From the IMG/VR virus record IMGVR_UViG_3300005613_000128, positions 1-43,494 of that record: DNA of 43,494 nucleotides, one strand, 5' to 3'. The notes beneath the pieces were generated by a model. The model worked only from the letters and a program-made list of their open reading frames with translations, was not told the DNA's origin and ran no database searches. Below, one piece after another: positions 4,963 through 33,036 of the stretch; the first letter of the stretch is position 1; each line of letters begins with the position of its first letter. Source of the stretch: a virus. The position numbers were made by a program, and so were the translations under genes.

Positions 4963-6405
4963 TCATCTCAAAAACACCGCGCCACGCTCAATTGTTGGAG
5001 CGTCGTTGGAGTTGGTTGTCATTAACAACTTCAACTGTAGCGTGTTGGCCTCCACACCTTCCTCAGCGTAAACGAGCTTTCTGGTAGTATCCTTAATTTC
5101 GGTCGTTGCTGTATAAGAACCAGTGTAGTTTTTATCGTACTGAATCTCAATTACACAACTAGCCGGAACTGTCTCATAGGCTACCAAAAACTTTGAGAAG
5201 GTTGAGAACGGCTCTCTGGTCGCGCTCATCACCCGCGTTTCGATGTAAGCCCCATTTAGCTTGTTCGAGGCATCAATCTTATCAACTCCGTAGTTAGTGC
5301 TTTCCTTCCACGCCACATAAAGATCGTGGCCGTCAACAAGAACCGCGCCAATGGTAGTACCAGTTAGGATAAAGGCGGCACCACTTCTTTGTGAGGTGGG
5401 ATAAGGAAAATCCAAAATATAGGGGTAACTTCGACCTGCCCGACCTAATCTATACACCCCCTCGTCAGCGGGGTCCCCAGAGCCGTTAGAGAACCCAAAA
5501 AGAATGTTACCGCCAATGTTGGCAACCGATCCGGGCTTGACACTCCCATACTTAGCGGCAGTAAAGTCTCCGGGGATTTTCTTAAATAATTCCAATGCTT
5601 GTCCGTTGTAGGTGTAAATGTTACCTCGTAACCCCGCTTGAACGAATACCATACTATCCGCAGGCATAAAGGCGTTAATCCCTTCCTCATCTACCGGATC
5701 GGAAACGGCGAAGTTGACACTAACTGTATTCCAGCGAATAACCTCGGTTGTGGCAATATCCGCTCCGCGATAGGTGCCGATTAAAACATCGGTTCCGATC
5801 TTCCCCAAAGCACTAACCCGACGTGGTGTTTTAATATCAAGAGCCAATCCACTAAATACTCCCGCATCTACTGTGGCCATATACTTCCCATCTCCGATGT
5901 AGAGGATATTATTTTGCTCAATCATCGGGTGGTAGGCCGCATCAGTAACTAGAAACTTTGCCCAGTTCTGCCCTGTAAGACCTGACCAGTCATCGTCCGC
6001 ACTGGCAACAGCGATCCTGTGTAAGTAACTCTCCGTCGCCCAGTAAACATAACCTTGATACTCAAAAGCACCCAGACAGGCGGCACCACCAGCAGTTGGG
6101 ACAGTTGTGTGACACAGAGTCCAAGTACCAGCGGCGGCGCGGTGCCAAATCTTGCCAGAGTCGCCACTAAACCAGAGTGTATCTCCAGTAGTTAAAGTAA
6201 GAGCGTGGGTGCAAAGTTCGGTTACGGTTGCCGCGCTATTCTTGGTTAATTTCTGTTCAACTTTGAGCAGGCCGGGGGTGGAGTGGGGATCAAATCCAAT
6301 CATTTTGTAAACAGAGTTTTTAACGCCCGACCATTTGGAATCGGCTAGACCGCCTGTGTTAAAACCCTCGATTGGTATGACCTGCTCAGCTCTTTGGTTT
6401 GGCAT
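4963..6405 (-). CDS. Beta-propeller-like tail protein, short paralogue
   Basis: The 480-residue protein opens MPNQRAEQVIPIEGFNTGG and has repeated beta segments typical of a propeller (LWFSGDSGKIWHR, ILYIGDGKYMATVDAG, NIYTYNGQALELFKKIPGD). It aligns along its whole length with the product of 6438-8075 but lacks that protein's Ser-Pro insertion. In short-tailed phages similar proteins form the tail nozzle or stopper; that assignment is inference. The start has no Shine-Dalgarno; an extended -10 box (6415-6423) lies 9 nt upstream. Confidence 0.75.
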   Translation of the reverse strand: MPNQRAEQVIPIEGFNTGGLADSKWSGVKNSVYKMIGFDPHSTPGLLKVEQKLTKNSAATVTELCTHALTLTTGDTLWFSGDSGKIWHRAAAGTWTLCHTTVPTAGGAACLGAFEYQGYVYWATESYLHRIAVASADDDWSGLTGQNWAKFLVTDAAYHPMIEQNNILYIGDGKYMATVDAGVFSGLALDIKTPRRVSALGKIGTDVLIGTYRGADIATTEVIRWNTVSVNFAVSDPVDEEGINAFMPADSMVFVQAGLRGNIYTYNGQALELFKKIPGDFTAAKYGSVKPGSVANIGGNILFGFSNGSGDPADEGVYRLGRAGRSYPYILDFPYPTSQRSGAAFILTGTTIGAVLVDGHDLYVAWKESTNYGVDKIDASNKLNGAYIETRVMSATREPFSTFSKFLVAYETVPASCVIEIQYDKNYTGSYTATTEIKDTTRKLVYAEEGVEANTLQLKLLMTTNSNDAPTIERGAVFLR

Positions 6406-6414
6406 TTCAGTTCA

Positions 6415-6441
6415 ATTATACCACAAAAAAATAAATGTCAA
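6415..6441 (-). promoter_or_regulatory. Promoter immediately upstream of the 4963-6405 gene
   Basis: On the minus strand TTGACA (6436-6441), a 15-nt spacer and TGGTATAAT (6415-6423) precede the ATG at 6405 by only 9 nt. A transcript from this box would begin at or beside the start codon. The spacer is shorter than the optimal 17, but the extended -10 (TGG) compensates. Confidence 0.6.
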
Positions 6442-8075
6442 CGAATGAATACCGCCGCACCTCTGATAGTTGGTGCGTAGTTAGCATTCGCCGTAAATAC
6501 AAGTTTTATCTGTAAAGTTGTTGCCTCCACGCTCTGCTCCGCGAAAATTACCCGTCGGGCAGTATCAGTAACCTCCGTCAACCCCGCATAATCGGCATGG
6601 TTCTTGCTGTATTGTATATCAATATCTGTATGTGTTGGTAAATCAACATAAGCCACTAAAAACTTGGAAAAGTCTGAGAACGGCTCTCTTTGAGCGGCCA
6701 TCACCATTGTTTCTAGGTACGCCCCATCGAGTTTATTGTTTGGATCCAACCTATCAACCCCGCTCGCTCCAGAGTACTTCCACGAAGCGAAAAGTTGCTG
6801 ACCAACCACCAAAAGCGCCCCAAACTCAACTCCGGATAGTATAAACCCTTCTTCCTCCTCCAGTGGTTCTGGAGAAGGAGAGACGCTAACACTAGGTGAT
6901 TCAGAAGGTGACTCAGATGGCGATTCGCTGGCACTTGGAGAGACTGAGCCAGACTCACTAGGACTTGAAGAATGGCTAGGGCTTGGGGACTCACTGGCAC
7001 TCTCTGATGGCGAATTAGAAGGCGACTCTGATAGGCTTTCTGACTCCTCTACACGCTCCGAAATTGGGTACGGCAGATCCAAAATATAGGGATAGTTTCT
7101 GGAGTGCCTGCCAAGACGGTAGATCCCGTCATCAATGGGATTCCCAGAGGAACCAAAGACACCAAATAAAACCTCTCCCGCAAGATTGGCAACAGCGTTC
7201 GGATTGACGAGACATTCGGTACTTATGGTGTGATCACCGGGGATTTTCTTGTAAAGCTCTAGTTCTTCGCCGTTGTAGACGTAAAGGTTCCCCGCCACAC
7301 CAGCAGAAACGAAAATGAGGTTGTCTCCGGGCAGGAAGGCGTTGATGGTGCTTTCCTCAATCGTATCAGAAGTGGTAAAGCTATCACTCCAAGTGTTCCA
7401 GCGGAAAACCTCCGCCCTGTTGTAGGCATTACCTTCGGTTCCGATGAGGATGTCCGTTCCTATCTTTCCTAAACACTTAACTATAATGGGGTCTTTAATA
7501 TCCAAAGCCGAAGCGGTAAAGACCCCAGCATCAACTTGAGCCACATCGTGACCATCCCCAATGTAGAGGACTAAGTGTTGCTCGATCATTGGGTGGTAAT
7601 CAGCATTAGCATTATCAAAATCGTCCCAGTCCTCAACAGCATTAGCTGTCCACTCCGCGGCCCCTTCCGCATCTGTGGCAAGGATTCTGTGGAGACGGCT
7701 CTGTGTCGCCCAGTAGATATAACCCTGATACTCGGCCGCCCCTAAGCACGCCGCCGCGCCCGCCTCTGGTGTAGTTGTGTGAACTAAGCTCCACCAGCCG
7801 TTCGCTCTCCGTTCCCAAATCTTCCCGCTCTCAGAACTAAACCAGTAGGTACGACCGTTAGTAGAAGCGACGGCTACCTTTACAAACTCGTCAACGGTGG
7901 CACCACTATCTTTAGTCATCTTCTGGGCAACTTTCAAGAGGCCGGGGGTGGTATGGAGGTCGAAACCGATCAGTTTATAGAACGAATTTTCAACACCGCT
8001 GAATTTGCTATCAGCTAGTCCACCAAGATTAAATTTTTCTATTGGTATAACTTGTTCTGATCGTTGATTTGGCAT
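6438..8075 (-). CDS. Beta-propeller-like tail protein with SPSES insertion, long paralogue
   Basis: This 545-residue paralogue of the 4963-6405 product opens MPNQRSEQVIPIEKFNLGG. The same beta segments occur in the same order (YWFSSESGKIWERR, VLYIGDGHDVAQVDAG, NLYVYNGEELELYKKIPGD). Between RLGRHSRNYPYILDLPYP and GFILSGVEFGALLV it carries about 68 extra residues of Ser-Pro-Glu repeats (about residues 340-408), where the short paralogue has only a turn. The insertion probably exits a surface loop without disturbing the fold. There is no Shine-Dalgarno; TGATATAAT lies 6 nt before the ATG. Tail nozzle or adhesin support is an inferred role. Confidence 0.75.
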   Translation of the reverse strand: MPNQRSEQVIPIEKFNLGGLADSKFSGVENSFYKLIGFDLHTTPGLLKVAQKMTKDSGATVDEFVKVAVASTNGRTYWFSSESGKIWERRANGWWSLVHTTTPEAGAAACLGAAEYQGYIYWATQSRLHRILATDAEGAAEWTANAVEDWDDFDNANADYHPMIEQHLVLYIGDGHDVAQVDAGVFTASALDIKDPIIVKCLGKIGTDILIGTEGNAYNRAEVFRWNTWSDSFTTSDTIEESTINAFLPGDNLIFVSAGVAGNLYVYNGEELELYKKIPGDHTISTECLVNPNAVANLAGEVLFGVFGSSGNPIDDGIYRLGRHSRNYPYILDLPYPISERVEESESLSESPSNSPSESASESPSPSHSSSPSESGSVSPSASESPSESPSESPSVSVSPSPEPLEEEEGFILSGVEFGALLVVGQQLFASWKYSGASGVDRLDPNNKLDGAYLETMVMAAQREPFSDFSKFLVAYVDLPTHTDIDIQYSKNHADYAGLTEVTDTARRVIFAEQSVEATTLQIKLVFTANANYAPTIRGAAVFIR

Positions 8076-8090: not shown

Positions 8091-10541
8091 CTACTCCCAA
8101 GAATGTTCCCACTCCGGCTGTATTGTCCAACCATCTGTGGCGGGTTTGGCTTCCACTGTCCAATCTGCCGGTGATGGTGACGGTGAAGCCGAAGCACTCG
8201 GACTTACAGATGGGCTTTCGCTGGGGCTTTCTGATGCCGATGGGGACACACTAGCACTCTCTGACGGACTTTCTGATGGAGACTCCGATGGGGACTCTGA
8301 CGCTGACGGACTTACAGAAGCTGATTCAGAGGCAGATTCGGAGGGACTCTCACTAGGACTTTCCGATGGGGATTCAGAAGGACTTTCCGACGGGGACTCA
8401 CTGGCAGACGGTGATATTGAAGCACTCTCTGACGGAGACTCGCTCGGGGACTCTGATGGCGAAACGCTCGGACTTTCTGAAGCGCTCTCACTGGGACTCT
8501 CCGACGGAGACTCCGATGGGCTTTCACTTGGAGACTCCGATGGCGACTCGGACGGTGATTCGCTAGGGCTCTCGCTCGGAGACTCCGAGGCACTATCTGA
8601 CGGACTTTCACTCGGCGATTCCGAAGCACTAGGAGAAAGAGAAGCGCTCTCGCTTGGACTCTCCGAGGGTGATTCGCTGGCAGAGGGGGACACTGACTTA
8701 CTCTCTGATGAGCTTTCACTCGCGGATTCAGAAGGAGACTCACTCGGACTTTCTGACGGACTTTCACTCGGCGATTCCGAAGCACTCTCACTCGGTGACT
8801 CACTGTGGGAAGGGGACACCGATCTGCTCTCCGATGAAGACTCTGATGGGCTCTCCGATGGTGATTCTGATGGAGATTCAGAGGGGCTTTCACTCGCGCT
8901 AGGGCTTATAGAAGCGCTCTCACTCGGAGACTCCGAGGGACTTTCACTCGGACTTTCAGACGGTGATTCAGATGGAGACTCCGATGGACTCTCGCTTGGT
9001 GATTCAGAGGGACTCTCTGATGGCGACGCAGAGGCTGAAGGGGAAACACTCGGACTTTCAGACGGTGACTCCGACGGCGATTCCGACGGACTTTCACTAG
9101 GTGAGGCGCTGGCACTAGGCGAGATTGATGGACTTTCTGACGGACTTTCACTCGGAGATTCACTCGGTGACTCTGAGGGACTTTCAGAAGCGCTAGGACT
9201 GACACTCGGCGATTCTGATGGCGACTCAGACGGAGACTCCGAAGGACTCTCACTAGGTGACTCAGAGGGCGATTCAGAGGGCGATTCAGATGCGCTGGGG
9301 CTGACGCTCGGACTCTCTGACGGACTCTCACTAGGTGATTCTGATGGCGACTCAGACGGAGACTCTGACGCTGACGGACTTACCGATGGGGACTCAGATG
9401 GAGACTCCGAAGGACTCTCCGATGGGGACTCACTAGGCGATTCAGACGCACTCGGCGATACGCTGGCCGATTCAGAGGGAGACTCCGAAGGACTCTCCGA
9501 TGGGCTTTCAGAGGGGCTTTCACTGGCACTTGGACTTACTGACGGAGACTCCGAAGGAGACTCCGATGGAGATTCTGATGCGCTAGGACTAACCGATGGT
9601 GATTCGCTAGGTGATTCTGAGGGACTTTCACTCGGACTCTCACTTGGTGACTCAGAAGCAGACGGAGAAACACTCGGTGATTCAGACGGGGATTCGGACG
9701 GGCTTTCCGATGGAGACTCGGATGGCGACTCAGACGGTGATTCAGACGGTGACTCAGATGCTGATGGACTTACAGACGGGCTCTCAGAAGGACTCTCTGA
9801 TGGAGACTCTGAAGGTGATTCAGAAGGACTCTCACTAGCAGAGGGACTAACGCTCGGTGATTCACTTGGAGACTCCGATGGACTCTCTGACGGACTTTCA
9901 GAGGGTGATTCACTCGCTGACGGGCTTACTGAAGGAGACTCTGATGGCGACTCGCTCGGACTTTCTGAGGGTGATTCAGAGGGAGACTCTGACGGACTCT
10001 CAGATGGAGATTCTGAAGCACTAGGTGATACAGAGGGACTCTCCGACGGAGATTCTGATGGACTTTCAGATGGAGATTCTGAAGGTGATTCAGAAGCGCT
10101 CGGACTCACTGAAGGACTTTCTGACGGAGATTCTGATGGGGACTCGCTGGCGGACGGAGACACACTAGGCGATTCTGATGGGCTTTCGGAGGGACTCTCT
10201 GAAGGTGATTCACTAGGCGACTCGCTAGCTGACGGACTTACCGACGGACTTTCTGACGGACTATCGCTCGGAGACTCTGAAGGACTTTCAGAGGGTGATT
10301 CAGAAGCGCTAGGTGATACTGAAGGACTCTCACTCGGTGACTCTGACGGACTCTCAGAGGGTGATTCTGACGGAGACTCTGATGCACTCGGAGAAACTGA
10401 TGGACTCTCCGAAGGACTCTCACTCGGAGATTCGGATGGTGATTCACTTGCAGAAGGACTTGATACCTCCTGCTCCAAAAGGATTTTATCCCCATCTTCT
10501 TTTAGAATAAGATCGCCATCTTCTTTTGCCAAAAAGGCCAT
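8091..10541 (-). CDS. SPSES-repeat giant linker/fibre protein
   Basis: In this 816-residue protein, residues about 28-790 are almost pure [18 protein letters not shown] repeats, with rare Asn-free variants such as SVSPSHSE and SISPSASA. The N-terminus [18 protein letters not shown] is a short phage structural motif, and the C-terminus [19 protein letters not shown] is Trp-rich and folded-looking, so the repeat links two anchors. Serine and proline codons vary synonymously along the repeat. The start follows a strong GGGAGG. The opposite strand is also open but only as a mirror of this codon pattern. Likely an extended, possibly glycosylated stalk; the glycosyltransferases at 12469-17926 are candidate modifiers (inference). 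Confidence 0.85.
8165..10460. repeat. Low-complexity Ser-Pro-Glu-Ser coding repeat
   Basis: About 2.3 kb of imperfect 6-, 12- and 54-60-bp periodic sequence encodes SPSE, SPSV and SPSA units. The protein repeat is nearly perfect while the DNA mixes many serine and proline codons. A shorter copy of the same pattern is at 18697-19310, and a 0.2-kb copy is at 6850-7056. Confidence 0.85.
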
Positions 10542-11854: not shown

Positions 11855-12439
11855 CTATCCTCCTTTCAGAACATTTACTATCTTCTCTTTTGTTAACCCC
11901 GTCCCCTCAAGAAATAGTGGTTGCCAACCATACCTTTCGAAAACTCTTACTCTTTCGTTTTTCCATCCCTCTAAACCGCCTTTTGCAAACTGCTGTTTAT
12001 GTCTGTTCCAATAGACTTCTACCGCCTTTTTCTCATTAGTGTTGATAAAGTCAGGGTTTTTCCTTCCAATGAAAAATCCCCCGTTTCCTACAAATTTATA
12101 TGGCAATCTATACTCGTCAATTACTCTTTTAACCCGCGTTTCTAGCCCAGACATTGGTCTCTTCTTAAGACACGCCCTAATTTGTTCCTTCGTTGGTATC
12201 CTTCCTTTCTTAAAAGCGGTTCTAGGAACAAAACCAGTTGGGACACCCGTCTTTGCTTTACTAATATTCGCTCTATGCTGTGGGGATTTCTTGACACCAA
12301 GAGAGGACAAACTCATCTTCCGTCTTGTTTCGGCGGAGTGCTTAGTTCCAAGACGACGTTTATTTCCCATTAGGGACATACTTATTTTATCCCTTGTTTC
12401 TTTGGAGAGTGTCCACCCTCCTCGTTTTTGGTCTGCCAT
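11855..12439 (-). CDS. NUMOD3 homing-type endonuclease
   Basis: This 194-residue protein has three NUMOD3-like helical DNA-binding repeats at the N-terminus (SKETRDKISMSLMG, SAETRRKMSLSSLG, SPQHRANISKAKTG). A compact nuclease domain resembling Vsr/DUF559 follows (PYKFVGNGGFFIGRKNPDF, EVYWNRHKQQF, FERYGWQPLFLEG), where the Asp of NPDF and the Glu of AVEVYW are likely catalytic. It is a free-standing mobile endonuclease inserted between the sugar cassette and the tail genes. An extended -10 box lies 10 nt before the ATG, so it may be expressed independently. Confidence 0.8.
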   Translation of the reverse strand: MADQKRGGWTLSKETRDKISMSLMGNKRRLGTKHSAETRRKMSLSSLGVKKSPQHRANISKAKTGVPTGFVPRTAFKKGRIPTKEQIRACLKKRPMSGLETRVKRVIDEYRLPYKFVGNGGFFIGRKNPDFINTNEKKAVEVYWNRHKQQFAKGGLEGWKNERVRVFERYGWQPLFLEGTGLTKEKIVNVLKGG

Positions 12440-16970: not shown

Positions 16971-17926
16971 TCTGCACCATCCCCCTCATAATCAATCTCG
17001 TTGGTTGGTTTGAGACCCTTTTTGATCCTGTCCCTCTCTTTTTCGGCCTTCATCTTCACCTGCCAAATATCCTGCTCTTTCCAGTCTTCCGGCCAACCGG
17101 GAACCGGCCAGAAGTGGTCAATCAACCACTCAAAATCCTTAGTTTGCTTGTGCCAAGCCCTCTCAATCAGCCACCGATTGATATAGGAGGTCGCCTTTAT
17201 CATCACCTTACTGTTAAGACGATAACCACGACCATATTTCTTACCTTTGTGAAGGTGGGCGTACCACGTTTTCTTATTCCGAATCATCCGACCACCGGAT
17301 AACCAGCACTTCAGCCCTATTTCCTGCATTTCCTTCCAAAACCCCCCGTAATTTTCAGTGTCCATTAACTCCAGATAATTAAAATAGTCACGAGGCATAA
17401 ACCAAGACGATCCCTGACCGGACATTGCATCATCTATCAACACCTTCTTTAGTTCGGGGTCTTTGTTTTTCTCGTTCCACAACCTACCGTGCAGTCCCGG
17501 CCCACCCCAGTCACCGGGGTCGTCGGGATAGGAGAGGTACATATAGTCAATGTCCGGCTTGCCTACATCCTGAATAGCCCAATTTTCAGCGTCCAATCTC
17601 TTGCGCCGGGGCATCACCACCCAGTCGTCATCACAATCAGCCGCCAACTTCAGATCAAAACCCTCATCAACCATACAATGAGCATCAATCTTCATCACAT
17701 ACTTACCCTTAGCAATAGCGGCGGCAGCATTGATCCCCGGCCGCATACCGTGTGGCTTACCTCGGTGGATTATCCTAACGCGGGGATCGTCTTTTAGTGG
17801 GGGATCGGGCCAGTAGCCGTCAAGGTGGACAATTATCTCAATCTCGCCCTTAGCTTTCTTTAGAAGCTCCTCGACGGTCTCTGGTAAAAACAGTTCGTTT
17901 CTGGATGGAATTAAAATACTAAGCAT
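16967..17926 (-). CDS. GT2 family glycosyltransferase
   Basis: The 319-residue protein is read from the ATG at 17926, just after the upstream stop. The GT-A fold is clear: LSILIPSRNELFLPETVEEL, EIIVHLDGYWPDPPL, VMKIDAHCMVDEGFD. It is a paralogue of the first domain of the 12469-14181 enzyme, sharing the acceptor-side block (GxxCWLSGGRM, NKKTWYAHLHKG) and the FEWLIDHFWPVPG ending. It lacks that enzyme's zinc knuckle and second domain. It opens the sugar/methyl cassette. Donor and acceptor cannot be told from sequence. Confidence 0.85.
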   Translation of the reverse strand: MLSILIPSRNELFLPETVEELLKKAKGEIEIIVHLDGYWPDPPLKDDPRVRIIHRGKPHGMRPGINAAAAIAKGKYVMKIDAHCMVDEGFDLKLAADCDDDWVVMPRRKRLDAENWAIQDVGKPDIDYMYLSYPDDPGDWGGPGLHGRLWNEKNKDPELKKVLIDDAMSGQGSSWFMPRDYFNYLELMDTENYGGFWKEMQEIGLKCWLSGGRMIRNKKTWYAHLHKGKKYGRGYRLNSKVMIKATSYINRWLIERAWHKQTKDFEWLIDHFWPVPGWPEDWKEQDIWQVKMKAEKERDRIKKGLKPTNEIDYEGDGAE

Positions 17927-21432: not shown

Positions 21433-21462
21433 AATCTACCATAAAAAAAACCCCGTTGTCAA
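21433..21462 (-). promoter_or_regulatory. Candidate capsid-gene promoter
   Basis: TTGACA (21457-21462), an 18-nt spacer and TAGATT (21433-21438) lie on the minus strand between the 21472 gene and the capsid gene. This predicts a leader of about 80 nt that contains the GAGA hairpin. Confidence 0.55.
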
Positions 21463-21970: not shown

Positions 21971-22624
21971 CTACCTGTCTTGCCCCATTACCCTTGCCCG
22001 CTCCGCTTGAAAATCCTCTTTAGACGCCTTCAACCAGTCCTTCCCCCCACCCTCTATCTTCCTTGCCGTCCCACCAACACCTTTTGTCTTGGCCACTTCT
22101 TCAGCCGCTTCCCGCTCCTTCTGCGCCCCCAGCTTCATCAGATCATCCCCCGCGACAATCCTCGCAATATTCTTAGCCGGGACATTGGAATAGGCTGGGT
22201 GCTTCATATAAGTAAGTATTTTACCGCGATACTGCTCAAACTCTGGCTTTTCGCGAATGAGGTCGTCAACTTCCGCCGCATCTGCCCGTTCTTGGATTGT
22301 AGCGTTTTGCTGTTCCAAACGCTCCTGAAGCGGCTTTAACCTTTTATCTACAACCTTTCCGATTGTAGCGGCATCTTCTGGGTCAACCTCATCATCCGGC
22401 GGAGTCGGAGGTTCCTCACCTTTCTTGGCGGGAGGTTTTGTGCGAACCTCCGGCTCCACCGGCGGTGGTGGGGTCTTCGTAAGACCAAAGGACTTAGCCT
22501 GCTCATCCGTCAGGTTATCAACATTAGATTCAAGGAATGTTTTTTGATCATCGGAAAGGTCGTCAGGAGCGACTTCGACAACTTCTTCGAGATTGAATTG
22601 TGGTTCGTTGTTATCTTCTGCCAT
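21971..22624 (-). CDS. Scaffolding-like protein
   Basis: In this 217-residue protein the first about 95 residues are acidic and Pro-rich (NLEEVVEVAPDDLSDDQK, PPPPVEPEVRT). A coiled segment follows (KRLKPLQERLEQQNATIQER), with a basic C-terminus ending DFQAERARVMGQDR. Acidic N-terminus, coil and basic end, placed two genes before the capsid, are typical of assembly scaffolds. Assigned from architecture and position. Confidence 0.65.
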   Translation of the reverse strand: MAEDNNEPQFNLEEVVEVAPDDLSDDQKTFLESNVDNLTDEQAKSFGLTKTPPPPVEPEVRTKPPAKKGEEPPTPPDDEVDPEDAATIGKVVDKRLKPLQERLEQQNATIQERADAAEVDDLIREKPEFEQYRGKILTYMKHPAYSNVPAKNIARIVAGDDLMKLGAQKEREAAEEVAKTKGVGGTARKIEGGGKDWLKASKEDFQAERARVMGQDR

Positions 22625-30433: not shown

Positions 30434-30697
30434 CTAGAGAACCTTCCAGTCCTCGGCTTTAAGATCGCCCTCATTGATGGTCCAAGGATGATCCTTACCA
30501 TCCCCGGTAGGCCCGCCGTGAATCACCACCCGCCCATCTTTGAGGTACCCGTAGATCTCTGGATCTTCCCAATCATCCCTAGTGATCTTTTTTCCACCGA
30601 CCAGCTTTCGGAGCGCTGAGTAAAAACTCATCCCCGGCTGATCTTTAGCTTTTTTAACCACTGGGCTTGTTGGGCTTCCTGCTGCTTTTTCCCCCAT
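30434..30697 (-). CDS. Tad2/DUF2829-like candidate anti-Thoeris protein
   Basis: The 87-residue protein has the DUF2829 layout: MSFYSALRKLVGGKKITRDD with the W that follows, a central strand pair YGYLKDGRVVIHG, and the terminal WTINEGDLKAEDWKVL. Proteins of this family (Thoeris anti-defence 2, Tad2) sequester the cyclic ADP-ribose signal of Thoeris immunity. The family fit is by pattern only; ligand residues were not checked. A ~20-residue disordered N-terminus precedes the domain. GGAGGTGAT precedes the ATG. Confidence 0.55.
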   Translation of the reverse strand: MGEKAAGSPTSPVVKKAKDQPGMSFYSALRKLVGGKKITRDDWEDPEIYGYLKDGRVVIHGGPTGDGKDHPWTINEGDLKAEDWKVL

Positions 30698-31842: not shown

Positions 31843-32458
31843 TATCCGACACCTCCTCCTCCAAAACCTTCCACCATCTTTTAAGTGTCGTTTGGGTAAC
31901 TCCAAAGTGATCCATCAACTTCCCCTCCGACCACCCCTCCTTTTTCAACCGGTAGGAGGCAATCGCTCGACTTATTTTTTCTTTGTGTAGTTTCTGATTC
32001 CACCGATTTGTTGTAACCATCGTATTCTTCTTTACCATACCATATTTTTCGTGGCTTGTCAATAGGCAGTTTGATACCCTCTTTTTCGGATTCAGAATTT
32101 GGTGAACCCGTTGACGACTTAGACCCACCTCACTACCAATTTGTTGGTATGTCAACCCATTATCCCGAAGCTCTCTCACCAATTTCTCCCTCCCCACCTT
32201 TCGAGATCCCTTAACCCCCGCCATCCGTTGATGTTCCCTAAAATGACATTTGGAACACAGGAGCTTTATATTAGACATCTTATGGTTAACACCTTTCCAC
32301 CCAACAGAGCTTACCCCCTTACCATCTATATGGTGAAAAATTAAATTATCGGGAGATCCACACACCTCACACTCGAAATTAGCCCGCTTCAGAACAGCTC
32401 TGTATGTAGGCCAAAGTTTGTCATTGCTCTTGTAAGTCCACCAACGCTCTTTTGCCAT
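31835..32458 (-). CDS. HNH endonuclease-HTH protein
   Basis: The true start is the ATG at 32458, giving 207 residues; the longer reading to 32698 crosses the non-coding control region. HNH zinc site: CEVCG (about 30-34), LIFHHIDGK (about 39-47), NIKLLCSKCHFREH (about 66-79). A helix-turn-helix follows (LRDNGLTYQQIGSEVGLSRQ) and a second HTH-like segment lies near the C-terminus (LMDHFGVTQTTLKRWW). A homing-type nuclease with DNA-binding domains; the HTHs could also make it a regulator of the divergent promoters. Its promoter gives a near-leaderless transcript. Confidence 0.8.
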   Translation of the reverse strand: MAKERWWTYKSNDKLWPTYRAVLKRANFECEVCGSPDNLIFHHIDGKGVSSVGWKGVNHKMSNIKLLCSKCHFREHQRMAGVKGSRKVGREKLVRELRDNGLTYQQIGSEVGLSRQRVHQILNPKKRVSNCLLTSHEKYGMVKKNTMVTTNRWNQKLHKEKISRAIASYRLKKEGWSEGKLMDHFGVTQTTLKRWWKVLEEEVSDNG

Positions 32459-32467
32459 AGCAAAATC

Positions 32468-32496
32468 AAAATACCATACTCTTGACAAGTTGTCAA
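32468..32496 (-). promoter_or_regulatory. Leftward promoter of early operon
   Basis: TTGACA (32491-32496) is separated by exactly 17 nt from TATTTT (32468-32473) on the minus strand. The -10 ends 9 nt before the ATG at 32458, with no Shine-Dalgarno. It overlaps the CTTGACAA palindrome. Confidence 0.6.
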
Positions 32497-32524
32497 GACT
32501 GAGATTAAAACTCGCTCTTGACAA
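32481..32524. promoter_or_regulatory. Operator-like CTTGACAA sites
   Basis: CTTGACAA (32481-32488) and its reverse complement (32490-32497) form a perfect 17-bp palindrome with a 1-nt centre. A third copy lies at 32517-32524. The copies overlap the -35 regions of both divergent promoters, a layout suited to one repressor controlling both. Confidence 0.65.
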
Positions 32525-32547
32525 AAGGAAAGCCGCCAGCGTATACT
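32518..32547 (+). promoter_or_regulatory. Rightward promoter of small RNA
   Basis: TTGACA (32518-32523), an 18-nt spacer and TATACT (32542-32547) on the plus strand. It is the only credible rightward promoter noticed and points to a predicted start near 32554. It overlaps the leftward terminator. Confidence 0.75.
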
Positions 32548-32553
32548 GGCGGC
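32522..32553 (-). terminator. Terminator of lysis/late transcription
   Basis: On the minus strand GCCGCCAG-tatacg-CTGGCGGC (8 bp, perfect) is followed by TTTCCTTTTGT. It would stop leftward transcription of the lysis operon before the HNH-HTH gene. Confidence 0.65.
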
Positions 32554-32633
32554 GGCTACCAATGACTATTCTAAACCTTCCCACAACTAAAAGCAAATCA
32601 CAAACCGCGCCGAATTGGTGCGGCGTTTTTTTT
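32554..32633 (+). ncRNA. Candidate small RNA with intrinsic terminator
   Basis: About 80 nt between the rightward promoter and its terminator, with no start codon plus Shine-Dalgarno. The first about 50 nt are A/C-rich and unstructured (ACCTTCCCACAACTAAAAGC), which would leave them free to pair with a target. This is the only transcription unit on the plus strand. Confidence 0.6.
32605..32633 (+). terminator. Rightward intrinsic terminator
   Basis: CCGCGCC-gaatt-GGTGCGG followed by CG and eight Ts (32626-32633). One of seven pairs is G-U in plus-strand RNA and would be a C-A mismatch in minus-strand RNA, which supports rightward use. Confidence 0.75.
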
Positions 32634-32636
32634 GTC

Positions 32637-32787
32637 GTGAGGGGTAGCTCGTTGGCGACGTAAAACCAGTGCAAATCTGGAAGCGTCGTCTTAGGCAAGG
32701 CGGCGCTGAAATCAGACGAGGTAAGGAATCGCCTCCTGTCCGGCGCAGGAACGACAGGGCCAACTCACTCATCACCGGCGTTTTTTT
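32637..32787 (+). ncRNA. Structured RNA with contiguous multi-helix junction
   Basis: GTTGGC (32651-32656) and GCCAAC (32759-32764) close a junction whose inner stems abut: GACG/CGTC with inner CCAG/CTGG (32657-32687), GTCT/AGAC (32688-32717), GAGG/CCTC (32718-32735) and CTGTC/GACAG (32736-32757), leaving one unpaired base. GTGA/TCAC extends the closing stem with a 10-nt bulge. Seven Ts follow at 32781-32787, without their own clear hairpin. Orientation is inferred from the T-runs. I do not recognise the class. Confidence 0.6.
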
Positions 32788-32823
32788 AACTACCTTTGGG
32801 GGTAGGGGGGAAAGAATGCCAAT

Positions 32824-33036
32824 CTACTCATCAACTTCCTTGTAAACATTTAATCTATCCTTTCTCAACTCATTCAAAAAGAATAAAACAATGTTAGCAA
32901 TACCGTAGTACTGGGAATACTCAGGCTTGTCTAAAACAAACGTGCAGATGGCAGTTACCGCCGCCGATCCCGCGACCCAACCCAAAACTTTTGCCGTTTT
33001 CTTTGTTGATTCGTTGATTCTGATTGCTAGGTTCAT
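32824..33036 (-). CDS. Small holin-like membrane protein
   Basis: Read from the ATG at 33036 (ATGA overlap with the peptidase gene) the product is 70 residues. Two hydrophobic segments (VLGWVAGSAAVTAICTFVL and YYGIANIVLFFLNEL) flank a short polar loop, and the end is charged (NVYKEVDE). Size, membrane topology and position after a lysin gene suit a holin. The lysis role is inferred. Confidence 0.65.
   Translation of the reverse strand: MNLAIRINESTKKTAKVLGWVAGSAAVTAICTFVLDKPEYSQYYGIANIVLFFLNELRKDRLNVYKEVDE

Follow-up and report, generated by a model that had tools for sequence, protein, structure and literature searches.

A perfect palindrome over the promoter of an HNH-HTH gene in an uncultured phage: a candidate operator

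Genes, promoters and palindrome at the locus

We analyzed the entire IMG/VR virus record IMGVR_UViG_3300005613_000128 (43,494 bases; hereafter the window), in which the long open reading frames (ORFs) with recognisable products, namely those with terminase, capsid, lysis and HNH matches, run leftward. The gene of our interest encodes a protein with an HNH domain and two helix-turn-helix (HTH) domains, and the approximately 365 bp between this gene and the next leftward ORF, which ends at 32824, carry no leftward gene (Table 1). The operon genes behind the HNH-HTH gene include those of YopX-like, Tad2-like and DUF5659 proteins detected by Pfam, a repertory that would suit an early operon. The Tad2-like (Thoeris anti-defence) domain is encoded at 30434-30697 on the minus strand (Pfam E value of 1.2e-8).

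The octamer CTTGACAA was found at 32481-32488 (+), 32490-32497 (-) and 32517-32524 (+), precisely the three sites claimed in the first-pass annotation. The first two copies comprise the arms of a perfect palindrome, which had been described as 17 bp long but in fact extends to 19 bp, with 9-bp arms around a central G at 32489. All three sites share the nonamer TCTTGACAA, of which three of the four copies in the window are confined to 32480-32524, while the fourth resides inside a C39 peptidase gene. The locus presents a single full palindrome and one half-site; the next-best 19-mer in the window bears 5 mismatches.

Both of the overlaps between octamers and promoters proposed in the first-pass annotation were confirmed. 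The leftward promoter comprises TTGACA at 32496-32491 and TATTTT at 32473-32468 separated by 17 bp; its -35 is embedded in the right arm of the palindrome, and the left arm falls within the spacer, half of which is covered. On the opposite strand, TTGACA at 32518-32523, which is supplied by the third octamer, and TATACT at 32542-32547 are separated by 18 bp, leaving 21 bp between the two divergent -35s.

Judging from the position of the -10, leftward transcription is predicted to start approximately 3 nt before the ATG of the HNH-HTH gene, so that the mRNA would be almost leaderless; no ribosome-binding site was detected before this gene by the pattern used. Three start codons in 4963-8075 (-) and 11855-12439 (-) are also preceded by TATAAT at a distance of only approximately 8 to 12 nt, suggesting that this phage frequently makes near-leaderless mRNAs. 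Thus, a start of this kind is no marker of a repressor gene, and we dropped it as such. Separately, the promoter-like site within the HNH-HTH gene (32034-32062) shares the TATGGTAT core with the main leftward promoter; transcription of the downstream genes or of a C-terminal HTH fragment could begin from it.

The rightward side appeared to lack an opposing regulator, as no rightward ORF of at least 60 aa starts between 32500 and 32830. The inverted repeat holding the rightward -10 looks like a terminator for the leftward transcription arriving from the lysis genes, and the rightward promoter may thus be in part a by-product of this terminator. The folding energy of the predicted short RNA was no better than those of shuffled sequences (z-score of -1.04; -0.66 for 32550-32800 and -0.34 for 32633-32800), and Rfam yielded no match at the gathering score and none above chance. 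With neither a rightward regulator ORF nor an Rfam match, and with ordinary folding energy, the small-RNA arm of the switch envisaged in the first-pass annotation was not supported. No viral contig matched a 20-base stretch taken from beyond the small RNA, and the noncoding stretch of the window matched the collected loci through the palindrome only. At approximately 32500-32900, the GC skew changes from clearly negative values to nearly zero, which is weakly compatible with a rightward RNA. We additionally noticed that the 12-mer CGGCGTTTTTTT occurs twice, at 32621-32632 and 32776-32787, each copy closing a noncoding block, and that the block of approximately 150 nt between the two copies is possibly a structured RNA.

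Table 1. Features around the palindrome; promoters, palindrome and protein domains are read directly from the nucleotide and translated sequences.
Feature	Position	Strand	Basis or remark
HNH + HTH + HTH gene, 207 aa	31835-32458	-	ORF, Pfam, PHROG
Second leftward promoter-like site TTGACA-17-TATGGT, within the HNH-HTH gene	32034-32062	-	sequence match
Leftward sigma70-type promoter TTGACA-17-TATTTT, TGG before -10	32468-32496	-	10/12, extended -10
Perfect palindrome TCTTGACAA-G-TTGTCAAGA, 19 bp, candidate operator	32480-32498		sequence; shuffles
Third TCTTGACAA copy; overlaps the rightward -35	32516-32524	+	sequence
Rightward sigma70-type promoter TTGACA-18-TATACT	32518-32547	+	11/12
Inverted repeat GCCGCCAG-CGTATA-CTGGCGGC	32532-32553		terminator-like leftward (tail TTTCCTTTTG); holds rightward -10
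Predicted short rightward RNA, approximately 78 nt, no protein gene	32554-32632	+	promoter and terminator positions
Rightward intrinsic terminator preceding a T run	32605-32631	+	sequence

Domains and distribution of the HNH-HTH protein

The assignment of the leftward gene to an HNH protein with HTH domains was backed by Pfam, in which residues 31-79 (HNH), 97-123 and 173-202 (HTH) matched above the cut-offs. Among the 17 distinct window proteins scanned with Pfam, no other protein matched an HTH family. By eye, the residues characteristic of a zinc-type HNH nuclease (Cys-Cys, His-His, Asn and His) appear to be retained in the protein, and its PHROG matches were mostly HNH endonucleases. In the structure predicted without relatives (mean pLDDT of 58), the two HTH regions were the best-modelled parts; a Foldseek search with this model retrieved nothing at an E value of 0.001, and none of the solved structures usefully matched the protein.

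We found no significant homolog of the HNH-HTH protein in viral contigs, GTDB genomes, phages (1e-5) or plasmids. Relaxing the E value up to 10 recovered only partial matches with <60% identity, and those among the matches listed were mostly annotated as HNH endonucleases. Likewise, the protein was absent from the 13 related records, several of which are fragments, and from the six-frame ORFs of the loci collected. A weak match spanning the HNH domain and the first HTH was seen in one of 379 genomes from the phylum to which G015 (L108) belongs (E value of 5.1e-6). Judged on these searches, so sporadic a gene is more readily understood as a mobile nuclease than as a core switch.

The first HTH may be speculatively read as being of the sigma70 region 4 type. 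If so, the protein would read the -35 hexamer and compete with sigma for CTTGACAA, repressing its own gene through the two inverted -35s, with other phage or host promoters as possible targets and with an HNH nuclease attached. It draws on a match of residues 100-123 to Sigma70_r4 with 23.9 bits, just under the cut-off of 24.1, and on a sigma70-ECF match (E value of 0.0013) far below the cut-off of that family; however, other HTH families outscored the sigma70 matches in this protein. We regard this reading as highly improbable.

Chance expectation and recurrence of the octamer and the palindrome

We generated 300 dinucleotide shuffles of the window. A palindrome (arms of at least 8, spacer of 0-1) on a promoter matching at least 10/12 positions was obtained in five of them. 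None contained three TCTTGACAA nonamers within 45 bp, albeit this figure overstates the case because the shuffles ignore that two promoters each need TTGACA. Palindromes of such size are not rare on their own: one with arms of at least 9 and a spacer of 0-1 was observed against a mean of 0.275 per shuffled window (40 shuffles), and those with arms of at least 8 and a spacer of up to 10 were no commoner than expected by chance (8 against a mean of 6.4; 30 shuffles). Promoter matches in the window amounted to 11 at the threshold of at least 10/12 and 2 at that of at least 11/12, against means of 6.2 and 0.5, respectively, in 60 shuffles.

The scan for further octamers proposed in the first-pass annotation yielded 9 copies of CTTGACAA in the whole window against 1.92 expected, an excess for which the use of the octamer as a -35 accounts in part. 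The copy at 21462 (-), for instance, serves as the -35 in a promoter-like site ahead of the major capsid gene of the window. The 13 related records contained 12 octamers. Six of the 12, in G007, G013 and G001, were inspected by eye; four of them were located at the -35 of a promoter-like site with no palindrome, while the remaining two, both in G013, were not at such a position. In both G001 and G007, the octamer lies upstream of the gene homologous to that at 21971-22624 of the window. The octamer is an ordinary -35 in this phage group. Thus, three copies do not imply three operator sites, and the third copy (32517) needs no operator role despite its 9-base match; a repeated -35 can mimic a set of operator sites, which calls for caution. 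Poor conservation of the octamers in relatives had been named in advance as an outcome that would speak against the switch, and the result is divided: the relatives do contain the octamer, in use as a -35, but lack any counterpart of the palindrome or of the HNH protein.

None of the relatives searched carried this palindrome or protein. One relative presented a similar arrangement. G007, of which TerL is 64% identical to that of the window, bears in order the lysis genes, an opposite-strand ORF, approximately 0.9 kb with no obvious gene, a palindrome and a 72-aa ORF. The palindrome is perfect, 20 bp long (L112, 18282-18301), and sits on a 10/12 promoter of the almost leaderless 72-aa ORF; a further copy with 3 mismatches was found at 17103. 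The two loci are alike in place and logic, but not in sequence and protein. The 72-aa ORF appeared by eye to encode an HTH protein, a candidate that was rejected as Pfam gave no match. In our scan of 95 sequences (the window and 94 loci, some overlapping one another), palindromes on promoters were also present at L112 9716, at one site shared by L038, L039 and L042, and in L052, L055 and L058, so that regulators are not the only genes with such an arrangement.

The exact 17-mer of the palindrome was found in 17 viral-contig stretches, several of which are near-identical. Stretches with a shorter palindrome followed by TAnnnT numbered 57 at promoter spacing and 33 when the spacing was shifted by 5; after near-duplicates were removed, the counts were 43 against 16, and a -10 with 5 or 6 matches to TATAAT was present in 29 against 2. 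Any TTGACA promoter would give such an excess, and therefore the counts show no more than a tendency of such sites to be promoters and are no proof of an operator. A scrambled arm serves as a better control than the shifted spacing: in the 379 genomes, TTGACAANTTGTCAA promoters gave 4 matches in 3 genomes and the scrambled arm 2 in 2 genomes, so that a general excess of palindromic promoters is not shown. In two viral contigs, L004 (10567-10819) and L013 (1008-1261), three TTGACAANTTGTCAA-type palindromes are clustered within approximately 250 bp in an operator-array-like manner. Queries with the lysis genes and the polyvalent protein retrieved no relatives. Terminase relatives were found in metagenome-assembled genomes (MAGs) labelled Methylococcaceae, Gottesmanbacteria, Nitrospirae and Staskawiczbacteria, a spread pointing to no single host.

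Possible roles of the palindrome

We tentatively favor, at somewhat less than even confidence, the palindrome as a single operator through which a leftward, probably early, operon is autorepressed in the manner of I-TevI. The palindrome would act over the -35 and the spacer of the leftward promoter, where a dimeric DNA-binding protein could occupy it and shut out RNA polymerase, so that the HNH-HTH gene and the following operon of small, probably early genes would be transcribed less. The likeliest binder would be the HNH-HTH protein itself, resulting in negative autoregulation; the third copy would chiefly serve as the -35 of the second promoter for a short terminated RNA, and a repressor could contact this copy too. 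We infer the operator role, the identity of the binder, the sign of the effect and the early timing of the operon. In favor of this reading, the perfect palindrome spans the -35 and half of the spacer, a comparable configuration arose in only five of the 300 shuffles and three nonamers within 45 bp in none, and G007 offers an analogous arrangement. Against it speak the lack of this palindrome and protein in the relatives searched, the scrambled-arm comparison in the 379 genomes and the missing Pfam match of the G007 ORF. Since the gene carries two HTH domains and has a palindromic candidate operator on its promoter, autoregulation is plausible; on the other hand, two unlike HTHs on one chain need not recognise a palindrome. 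Of the autoregulated divergent switch in the first-pass annotation, autoregulation via one palindromic operator stands as plausible, while the three-site divergent switch is not supported, the third octamer being explained as a -35.

I-TevI, an intron endonuclease of phage T4, represses its own promoter, with binding and repression shown experimentally, and its operator resembles the homing site and overlaps a late promoter (PMC2988022). I-TevI and the window's protein share a nuclease domain with a separate DNA-binding region, here an HNH followed by the HTHs, as well as an operator (a candidate one in the window) over their own promoter. They differ in that I-TevI is of the GIY-YIG family and intron-borne, whereas the window's protein is of the HNH family and its autorepression is a prediction. 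If true, an HNH-HTH nuclease of an uncultured phage joins the nucleases controlling their own promoters and offers a small, easily tested operator. In the telomere phage PY54, one palindromic operator of 16 bp, OR3, controls the leaderless cI, and the cI and cro mRNAs are both leaderless (PMC4488713). The likeness to the window lies in a single palindromic operator, a candidate one in the window, upstream of a leaderless regulator gene; in contrast to PY54, which has the opposing cI and cro, the window offers a single candidate regulator, and its rightward side has no protein gene.

A serious alternative, to which we give about one chance in three, is that the locus comprises two ordinary host-type promoters with the strong -35 CTTGACAA, and that the palindrome is a coincidence bound by RNA polymerase alone. 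The use of the octamer as the -35 of further promoters in the window and relatives, the chance-level number of palindromes with arms of at least 8 and a spacer of up to 10, and the lack of a clear over-representation of palindromic -35 promoters in the 379 genomes are consistent with this explanation. However, the 9-bp left arm lies outside both promoter hexamers, the three copies agree over 9 bases, past the -35, and the arrangement arose in so few shuffles.

We consider it rather unlikely that the palindrome is a real operator read by another protein, either a host regulator or another phage protein, with the HNH-HTH gene being an unrelated mobile nuclease riding as the first gene. The absence of the HNH-HTH homolog from the related records searched is as expected for a mobile gene, PHROG matched mainly HNH endonucleases, and the exact 17-mer is located on promoter-like sites of unrelated viral contigs with quite different genes downstream. 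Nevertheless, no alternative regulator candidate was found among the part of the window proteins scanned.

The HNH motif and the sporadic presence, noting that several of the 13 records are fragments, are those of free-standing HNH homing endonucleases; as in the mob genes of T4-like phages (PMC2988022), the HNH gene is positioned between phage genes, is missing in relatives and contains a promoter-like site within the coding region. No relative was near enough to reveal the corresponding empty allele.

A lambda-like two-way switch, in which one protein on the palindrome or the third site picks the early operon or the small RNA, is possible but highly improbable: the related nonamers on both of the divergent -35s 21 bp apart and the terminator that would end the rightward RNA at approximately 78 nt are set against no rightward protein gene, just one full palindrome, an RNA that folds like shuffles with no Rfam match, a third octamer accounted for as a -35, and an arrangement seen in no relative. 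Two opposing regulator genes flanking an operator, as in a lambda-type immunity switch, were not found between 32500 and 32830, and no integrase matched among the 17 distinct proteins scanned. Repression of a promoter through a palindrome is widespread in gene control, and a genuine two-way switch, which finds no support past the third nonamer, is not established here.

Two observations were made around the structural genes. Several related phages carry a short hairpin, GGAARAACC with 4-pair stems, that precedes structural or packaging genes or coincides with their start (22638, 21399 and 27502 of the window, all on the minus strand; L019 2896 and 7774; L021 8709; L033 9960). Its outer pairs vary among copies, for example CGG..CCG, TGG..CCA and AAGG..CCTT, and it is reminiscent of a boxB-type or translational signal. 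Beside the structural genes, 8091-10541 (-) of the window encodes an 816-aa protein consisting nearly entirely of Ser-Glu-Ser-Pro repeats.
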